Source: Acetobacter pasteurianus subsp. pasteurianus LMG 1262 = NBRC 106471 (GTDB lineage Bacteria > Pseudomonadota > Alphaproteobacteria > Acetobacterales > Acetobacteraceae). From it: a stretch of 64,000 bases of DNA. The notes beneath the pieces are model-generated. The model made no database searches, was not told where the DNA came from, and worked only from the letters and a program-made list of their open reading frames with translations. The stretch's first letter is position 1, and each line of letters begins with the position of its first letter. The position numbers and the translations under genes are program-made. Shown in pieces: positions 52,987-54,209 of this stretch. The stretch lies in NCBI RefSeq assembly GCF_000285275.1, contig NZ_CADO01000001.1, forward strand, positions 1 through 64,000, read 5' to 3'.

Positions 52987-53334
52987 GTATTATAAATCAC
53001 AATCATGAGAGATTTTTTGTTGCACTCGCTCCGATATCACAAAGATGTGCATTACAGGCATAACAAACAAATATTCCATATATCCCATTATTTATAAATA
53101 ACTTTCTTAAAACCTTCCAAATAAAAACCTAACATTTTTTATAATTTCCTTAATCTTTCCTCATTATTATATTTGTTTCGATATGCATAAAACGCATACT
53201 TGGTACGCGCTAAAGAGAAGCCCTGAACGAAATATGGTTTGTTTCTTTTTAAAACACGTATAGGTTTAGACGTATCAACAAAATGCAACCACAGGGTGCA
53301 TTTCTGATTCTCTGAACCATAATGAGGTTCCACC
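52987..53334. other. AT-rich intergenic region upstream of the CtrA-like gene
   Basis: Markedly more AT-rich than its surroundings, with A- and T-runs. It must carry the divergent promoters of tsaE and the response regulator. I see no perfect CtrA site (TTAA-N7-TTAA). A minus-strand frame of up to 80 codons at 53139-53381 overlaps the regulator start and looks spurious. Confidence 0.5.
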
Positions 53335-54120
53335 ATGCGTATTTTACTTTTAGAGAATGATTTCACTTCTAGTCGGACCATATTTTCAGCATTAACAAAA
53401 GCTTCTTTTTCGGTGGATATAGCTCAGTGTGATCAGGAAGCTATAGAATTACTCAGAAACTATGATTATGGCCTTGCCATTCTACACTTGCAGCAGCCTG
53501 ATATTCATGGCTACGAGATTCTTAGCACATTACGATCTTTAAAACTTGCAACACCAGTTATTGTTATCTCACCAGTTAACAACCCAGAAGTAAAAACCAA
53601 AGCTTTTGCCGCAGGCGCTGACGATTATATCATGGATCCATTTGATGCGACTGAACTTACAGCCCGCATACAAGCTATTTTACGGCGGGTGCACGGCTAT
53701 GCCCACCCTGTTGCACAGATTGGCGATCTTACAGTTAACTTCAACAGTCATACCGTAACAGTCAATAATCAGCCTGTGCACCTGACCGGAAAAGAATTTG
53801 CCATTCTTGAACTCCTTGTATTGCGCAAAGGCATTGCTCAAACCAAGGAAACCTTCCTCAACCATCTTTATGGAGGGCGGGATGAACCGGATATAAAAAT
53901 TATAGATGTTTTTATCTGTAAACTTCGTAAAAAACTTCAGGCCGCAGGGGCAGGAAATCTTATTTCCACCGTATGGGGCAGAGGTTACATTCTAAATGAT
54001 CCTCAGGCATCTCAAGCATACGAGTCCATGTCCGCTCTCAGTAAACCTCTTGAAAAATCGCAATCAACCTCAAACAGGCATGCCTCTCGCAAGCATGAGG
54101 ATCCTTTATCTTTACTCTAA
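53335..54120 (+). CDS. CtrA-family response regulator with a degenerate receiver
   Basis: 261 residues. The DNA-binding half (about 125-222) closely follows CtrA as I recall it: HLTGKEFAILELLVLRKG, FLNHLYGGRDEPDIKIID, VFICKLRKKL and TVWGRGYIL. The receiver keeps the CtrA length and register (MRILLLENDF at 1, PDIHGYEIL at 55, GADDYIMDPFD at 94), but the phospho-acceptor Asp51 is His (AILHLQQPD), one pocket acid is Asn8 (ENDF) and the conserved Lys near 101 is Asp (MDPFD). Phosphorylation is therefore unlikely. A 39-residue Ser-rich tail (223-261) replaces the short CtrA end and lacks its Ala-Ala degradation tag. The gene is AT-rich and alone. Confidence 0.88.
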   Translation: MRILLLENDFTSSRTIFSALTKASFSVDIAQCDQEAIELLRNYDYGLAILHLQQPDIHGYEILSTLRSLKLATPVIVISPVNNPEVKTKAFAAGADDYIMDPFDATELTARIQAILRRVHGYAHPVAQIGDLTVNFNSHTVTVNNQPVHLTGKEFAILELLVLRKGIAQTKETFLNHLYGGRDEPDIKIIDVFICKLRKKLQAAGAGNLISTVWGRGYILNDPQASQAYESMSALSKPLEKSQSTSNRHASRKHEDPLSLL

Positions 54121-54166: not shown

Positions 54167-54209
54167 AATTCTAGGGAAAAGAATTTCAAAAATTCCTTTC
54201 CCTAGAATT
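54167..54209. terminator. Convergent terminator between the CtrA-like gene and glmM
   Basis: AATTCTAGGGAAA (54167-54179) pairs with TTTCCCTAGAATT (54197-54209), extended inside by GAATTT/AAATTC with one mismatch. TTGTTTT follows on the plus strand. It serves both convergent genes. Confidence 0.8.

Follow-up and report, generated by a model that had tools for sequence, protein, structure and literature searches.

How does a master regulator outlive the kinase that controls it? CtrA is the textbook cell-cycle regulator under control of phosphorylation, and the question is raised here by a ctrA gene of Acetobacter, a genus of food bacteria suited to ordinary laboratories, in which the receiver has lost its phosphorylation residues. 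The window (the whole stretch of DNA analyzed, 64,000 nucleotides of A. pasteurianus LMG 1262) carries on its forward strand an open reading frame with an ATG start (positions 53335 to 54120) that encodes 261 residues and is the ctrA of this genome by Pfam, NCBIfam, and genome searches. A receiver domain (residues 1 to 118, positions 53335 to 53688), predicted to keep its fold from the Response_reg match, an AlphaFold model, and alignment, precedes a DNA-binding domain (residues 126 to 222, positions 53710 to 54000) defined by Pfam and by consensus comparison. The Pfam matches themselves cover residues 3 to 113 (Response_reg) and 146 to 220 (Trans_reg_C). The best NCBIfam model for the protein is CtrA (NF045991, 295.7 bits), and the next family scores 147.3. 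Because the protein falls under the equivalog cut-off of 350 while three family members pass, two of them relay-plus (374.8 and 373.4) and one an early-branching member with Glu51 (351.6), we take it to be a diverged CtrA ortholog, one that NCBI's model would not name CtrA. A genome search found eight Trans_reg_C proteins, only one of which is CtrA, and there is no second, canonical CtrA among the eight. In a tree with one protein per genome, the window protein groups with the canonical CtrA proteins of Acetobacteraceae, with which it shares a common neighborhood; glmM is the neighbor of ctrA at most Acetobacter loci and at 12 loci from other genera and was not seen at several ctrA loci with short flanks. 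The best family, the tree, and the sole copy bear out the first-pass annotation, which had called the gene a CtrA homolog.

What the receiver has lost was followed codon by codon, in sequence and alignment. Codon 51 (CAC, positions 53485 to 53487) encodes His in place of the phospho-acceptor Asp, codon 8 (53356 to 53358) encodes Asn in place of a pocket Asp, and codon 101 (GAT, 53635 to 53637) encodes Asp in place of the conserved Lys, all three as originally annotated. The Asp51/Asp8/Lys101 set of a canonical phosphorelay receiver is absent in full. Asn8 stands where DrrD and BasR have their second acidic residue, which we take to be the Mg-binding Asp. Since Glu7 and Asp9 are still present, the pocket has lost one acidic residue and not the entire acidic cluster. 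The other seven Trans_reg_C proteins of the genome all carry the acidic pair, the phospho-Asp, and KPF or KPY, and because they are intact, the loss is specific to CtrA. His51 and Asn8 are common to the window genome and four relatives (5/5), with Asp or Glu at residue 101, and these five genomes make up the His51 clade. One relative, G031, has a CtrA identical to that of a named A. pomorum locus with His51, L039, which for that reason was not counted as a sixth case. A sequencing error is ruled out by the agreement of five genomes on His51 and Asn8 and by the canonical state of all seven other regulators. Asp in close relatives had been named as the observation that would speak against a genuine change; it is absent within the His51 clade, and it does occur in a neighboring Acetobacter clade of seven genomes.

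Is the CckA-ChpT phosphorelay itself present? The ChpT model PF10090 scored over its cut-off in none of 49 Acetobacter genomes. It did so in 18 of the 44 genomes that represent other genera, and in 17 of these the match spans at least 91 of the 123 model positions. Weak, partial matches under the cut-off occur in 35 of the 49 Acetobacter genomes. Four of these were inspected and rejected as ChpT: at loci L099, L103, and L106 the match lies within a hybrid kinase of about 750 residues, in its kinase core, and at a 269-residue frame in G044 no ChpT-like gene was seen. When an Acetobacteraceae CckA was used as the query, no clear ortholog was found in 36 Acetobacter genomes, in which the best match reached at most 222 bits. 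Seventeen of the 80 genomes, among them the source of the query, have matches of 268 to 594 bits that were called orthologs by score and N-terminal coverage. ChpT is the cleaner marker of the relay because CckA scores are graded, with non-ortholog kinases elsewhere reaching 268 to 270 bits and one ortholog (G058) called at 268. A protein of 703 to 713 residues in G040 and G002 was also considered as CckA and was ruled out by its architecture and score. Loci L130 (G040) and L131 (G002) encode an Acetobacter hybrid kinase with the order receiver-PAS-kinase-receiver and a CckA-like AGGIAHDFNNLL core.

We call relay-plus the 17 CtrA rows whose genomes have CckA and/or ChpT; 15 have both, G072 has ChpT only, and G134, a genome 84% complete, has CckA only. 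Ten of the 45 Acetobacter rows were classed by the ChpT search only, as the CckA search left them out. Matches to both CckA and ChpT are also present in G109, in whose assembly ctrA is broken. In the window genome, CckA and ChpT were not found at ortholog level, and a strongly diverged ChpT there is conceivable. Given a sole CtrA ortholog, no ChpT over the cut-off, and no clear CckA, the earlier suggestion that this CtrA acts outside the phosphorelay was well founded. Patchy relay loss in Rhodospirillales has been published previously. Relay genes are missing in part of the order, with ctrA often kept (Brilli 2010, PMC2877005), and chpT, cckA, and divL were found in 27 to 36% of genomes as compared with 72 to 82% for ctrA, gcrA, and ccrM (PMC8116508). 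The available parts of these two papers report relay loss as seen here but make no mention of changes in the CtrA receiver.

Across the family, loss of the phosphorylation residues co-occurs with absence of the relay. CtrA was matched in 46 of 49 Acetobacter genomes, once in each (E values up to 1e-40), and 88 CtrA proteins were collected from the genus and from representatives of other genera, the latter chosen and not random from 299 genomes (264 with a CtrA match). Three interrupted or out-of-frame copies (G028, G079, and G109) were dropped, leaving 85 rows, 45 from Acetobacter and 40 from other genera. Residue 51 is Asp in all 17 relay-plus rows and in 13 of the 68 relay-minus rows, and the triad Asp8/Asp51/Lys101 is kept in 17/17 relay-plus rows versus 8/68 relay-minus rows. 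The commonest substitute is Glu, found in 20 of the 45 Acetobacter rows (beside 8 with Thr, 8 with Asp, 5 with His, 3 with Ser, and 1 with Asn) and in 14 of the 23 relay-minus rows of other genera (beside Asp in 5, Ala in 2, and Arg in 2). Among named species, Glu51 occurs in A. senegalensis and A. tropicalis; Thr51 in A. okinawensis, A. lovaniensis, A. syzygii, A. lambici, and A. fabarum; Ser51 in A. peroxydans and A. suratthaniensis; Asn51 in A. garciniae; and Asp51 in A. malorum, A. cerevisiae, A. orleanensis, A. persici, A. farinalis, and A. indonesiensis.

The full triad without a found relay is present in seven Acetobacter genomes of the malorum/cerevisiae/orleanensis type and in G061, and phosphorylation by another kinase is possible in these organisms. 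Another kinase might even phosphorylate CtrA across relay-less Acetobacter, with the His51 clade as a late local loss, an idea that the full triad of the seven Acetobacter rows and the hybrid kinases with an AHDFNNLL core in aceti-type genomes would fit. Such a kinase cannot account for the window protein, however, as there is no acceptor Asp in it, and Asp51 is held by only the minority of relay-minus rows given above. We consider this explanation very unlikely.

The order of the changes was approached with a tree of 77 rows that excluded the active-site columns and did not include seven long rows (G087, G061, G049, G092, G113, G115, and G143) or the truncated G024. In this tree, a branch with support of 90/92 sets the 61 relay-minus rows apart from the others, and the branch that splits relay-plus from Acetobacter rows has support of 100/97 when 17 other rows are not counted. 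A node of 59 rows (80/75) is Glu51 by parsimony, the node below may be either Asp or Glu, and beside this ambiguous node stand G103 and G118, which keep Asp51 and have Gly8. With moderate support, the tree places the change of Asp51 to Glu early in the relay-less clade and the changes to Thr, Ser, Asn, and His later. The sister group of the Thr/Ser/Asn/His clade (17 rows, 99/96) within Acetobacter is a clade of 7 rows with Asp51 (96/95). The codons at position 51 are GAC for Asp, AAC for Asn, ACC for Thr, AGC for Ser, and CAC or CAT for His. All of these except CAT differ from GAC or AAC by a single step, and it is therefore plausible that Glu went back to Asp ahead of the final loss. The link between relay absence and triad loss has one to two independent contrasts on the tree, too few to reach significance. 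Loci L206 (G115) and L207 (G143) encode CtrA proteins with Arg51, a very diverged receiver, and a long branch beside a relay-plus row; their placement is unsure according to a warning of the tree tool, and Arg51 might possibly mark a second, independent loss.

Purifying selection acts on the receiver without its phosphorylation residues to a similar degree as on the DNA-binding domain. Among the 10 pairs of the His51 clade, dN/dS by a simple counting method, with domain dS of up to 1.39, was 0.063 to 0.155 for the receiver and 0.032 to 0.127 for the DNA-binding domain. Moreover, the face through which such receivers pair has been kept. Positions 87, 96, 97, 107, 111, and 118, which we take from work on ArcA and KdpE to mark the alpha4-beta5-alpha5 dimer face, are jointly kept, conservative changes admitted, in 83 of 85 rows (all but G117 and G047, the latter with a local deletion) and in all 17 Thr/Ser/Asn/His51 rows, the five His51 rows included. 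Four active-site residues, by comparison, are jointly kept in 17/17 relay-plus rows, 8/68 others, and 0/17 Thr/Ser/Asn/His51 rows. An AlphaFold monomer model, which carries no information on activity, predicts a normal receiver and DNA-binding fold (mean pLDDT 80.5, pTM 0.50), with receiver pLDDT of 77 to 93 in blocks of 10 residues. Selection for DNA binding alone, as first proposed, is not supported, given the constraint on the receiver and the kept dimer-face residues.

We favor as probable the reading that the window protein is an aspartate-less CtrA, unplugged after relay loss, that pairs and binds DNA without phosphate and is controlled through its abundance. The CckA-ChpT phosphorelay would have been lost in the lineage leading to the acetic acid bacteria, and CtrA would have been freed from phosphorylation early by a change from Asp51 to Glu that mirrors in nature the phosphomimetic made in the laboratory. 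The C-terminal AA would then have been lost in one large Acetobacter clade, and the pocket changed in several Acetobacter sub-clades, to Thr, Ser, Asn, or His at residue 51 and to Glu, Asp, or another residue at 101. The His51 protein may pair through its kept alpha4-beta5-alpha5 face without phosphate, like HP1043 and ChxR, and would bind DNA constitutively, with output set by the amount made. GcrA is a candidate driver of that amount. We infer phosphate-free pairing and DNA binding, control by abundance, the role of GcrA, and the order of events.

Purifying selection on the receiver would also be expected if the receiver still regulates, with His51, Asn8, and Asp or Glu101 forming a rebuilt pocket that senses pH, a metal, or a ligand, or with His51 itself modified. 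Pocket changes do go together by clade, His51 with Asn8 and Asp or Glu101 in 5/5 rows and Thr51 with Lys9 and Glu101 in 8/8, and the coupling pair Ser79 and Tyr98 is kept in all five His51 rows. Agreement within clades may, however, stem from common descent and fold stability, and we regard a rebuilt pocket in the window protein as unlikely. A broader version combines both ideas: the acetic acid bacteria fixed Glu51 and kept CtrA as a constitutive dimer set by abundance, and Acetobacter then rebuilt the pocket as a new input for pH or a metabolite. This combination is doubtful, but if true, a pocket of His51/Asn8/Asp101 or Thr51/Lys9/Glu101 serving as a new input would explain why purifying selection on the receiver continues.

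After loss of flagella and relay, ctrA could instead be a relic with little function and an eroding receiver. The flagellar marker FlgI was found in 52 of 80 genomes and is absent in the window genome and in three of its four His51 relatives, the A. pomorum-like one being the exception. CtrA orthologs were not found in three of the 49 Acetobacter genomes (G038, G039, and G041), and ctrA is interrupted in the assemblies of two further ones, A. papayae (G028) and G024. The receiver of A. tropicalis-type CtrA (L057 and L094) has an internal deletion at about beta4-alpha4 in an otherwise open frame. All of these would suit a relic, but both domains are under purifying selection in the His51 clade while the tail drifts, the six dimer-face positions are intact there, and the predicted fold is normal. 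Moreover, of the 28 genomes that lack FlgI, 23 have an uninterrupted CtrA, from which we conclude that the protein is retained for something besides the flagellum. A relic is, in our judgment, improbable. We note that the interrupted or out-of-frame copies lie at L058/L097 (G028), L098 (G024), L205 (G109), and L208 (G079), where they may be real losses or assembly errors, and that G039, which has no CtrA, still has FlgI. GcrA, the candidate driver in the reading we favor, was matched in 79 of 80 genomes, the window genome included, by a model that is not perfectly specific, as it also matched one archaeal control genome. The one exception is a relay-plus genome, and G038, G039, and G041 all have GcrA matches.

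How the rest of the protein compares with canonical CtrA differs by region. The domain order is that of CtrA from Caulobacter and other alphaproteobacteria, to which the protein is orthologous by tree and NCBIfam, and the recognition helix (residues 184 to 201) is kept, with 16 of 18 positions equal to the relay-plus consensus. Agreement with that consensus is 61 of 77 positions in the winged helix-turn-helix core and 55 of 118 in the receiver. Unlike canonical CtrA, the protein is without the acceptor Asp, the pocket Asp, the Lys, and the C-terminal AA, its genome is without clear CckA or ChpT, and it scores under the NF045991 cut-off that relay-plus members pass. The weakly conserved tail (residues 223 to 261, positions 54001 to 54117) has 39 residues, 9 of them Ser, and ends in SLL and not AA, as described at first pass. 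Regulation through the tail, which was suggested along with it, finds no backing, as this is the least constrained part of CtrA (dN 0.20 to 1.17 in pairs of the His51 clade) and pLDDT in the AlphaFold model is below 50 from residue 226. The C-terminal Ala-Ala of CtrA serves ClpXP proteolysis. Of the 17 relay-plus rows, 12 end in AA, as do 4 of the 23 relay-minus rows from other genera and all 15 aceti-type Acetobacter rows. The 30 crown Acetobacter rows all lack it, and in 21 of them the last residue is Asp or Glu. Since 19 of the 23 relay-minus rows from other genera lack AA too, the Acetobacter crown is not the only place where it is missing. Judging from these ends, control of CtrA by AA-based proteolysis may have changed as well.

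Receivers without an aspartate have precedents. Without phosphate, ChxR and HP1043 form pairs by way of alpha4-beta5-alpha5 and bind DNA, according to the part of the source available (PMC3960148). The window protein likewise keeps the receiver fold, as modeled, and the alpha4-beta5-alpha5 face, as judged by sequence, without a phospho-Asp, and it would fit the class of aspartate-less, atypical OmpR-type regulators. Unlike HP1043 and ChxR, the regulator here is CtrA, and a single bacterial family offers Asp, Glu, and then Thr, Ser, Asn, or His for comparison. In the accessible part of a survey of aspartate-less receivers, Glu is the commonest substitute (26%), as it is in Acetobacteraceae CtrA, Asp to Glu alone is often insufficient for activity, and His is not among the substitutes named (PMC4395418). 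In Caulobacter and Rhodobacter, D51E serves as a phosphomimetic allele of CtrA, and gafA is activated by unphosphorylated CtrA in a model proposed for R. capsulatus, as far as the portions seen of the two sources go (PMC6363796, PMC12186491). The laboratory D51E corresponds to the Glu51 of aceti-type Acetobacter and of other genera, the window species having His, and AA loss resembles the stabilized allele ctrA delta3-omega in being a changed C-terminus. Unlike these alleles, the changes in Acetobacteraceae are natural and common to many species. No such series of CtrA receivers was found in the consulted parts of the literature on CtrA of acetic acid bacteria and on degenerate receivers, mostly from non-subscription journals; CtrA is named only as a ClpP substrate in the part seen of one report (PMC12733265) and does not occur in the main text of another (PMC13214618). 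We read the His51 CtrA as one end of a family-wide series and as a probable late state of a lineage-wide change. The series, from relay with Asp51 through relay-less Glu51 to the Thr, Ser, Asn, and His pockets, makes testable how a master regulator outlives its kinase. It also lets one ask whether a phosphomimetic step is a usual escape route and what CtrA does with neither phosphate nor flagella to run.

The Caulobacter-type box TTAA-N7-TTAA is absent from the 250 bp before the window ctrA and is not enriched in the genome (12 places versus 37 for a reversed-pattern control). CtrA boxes within 250 bp before ctrA occur in 0 of 17 relay-plus rows (shuffled mean 0.06), 3 of 23 relay-minus rows of other genera (shuffled mean 0.83, maximum 3), and 5 of 45 Acetobacter rows (shuffled mean 1.42, maximum 5). 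The Asp51 Acetobacter have such boxes in 4 of 8 rows (shuffled mean 0.4, maximum 2), which, three of the four being close relatives, only hints at self-control of ctrA in that clade. Nor is there support for general control of Acetobacter ctrA by CcrM, since GANTC, present within 250 bp in 19 of 45 rows, is rarer than composition predicts (mean of 0.44 sites versus 0.83 expected). A GANTC site (GATTC, positions 53306 to 53310) lies 29 bases 5' of the window ATG and at the same place in all five His51 genomes, but we do not treat it as specific evidence because the adjoining leader is conserved as a whole. That leader contains an inverted repeat, AAATGCAACC/GGGTGCATTT (positions 53281 to 53303), that could be an operator or an RNA hairpin. 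Compared by eye, its arms are recognizable in the four His51 relatives, with one arm altered in G003 and a paired change in the A. pomorum-like G031.

Around ctrA, Rfam gave no match at gathering score, and sub-threshold matches to microRNA models at positions 54167 to 54209 look like chance matches to a hairpin. The hairpin there, between the convergent genes ctrA and glmM, is an inverted repeat whose 20-base arms are 95% complementary, and it is possibly a two-way terminator.
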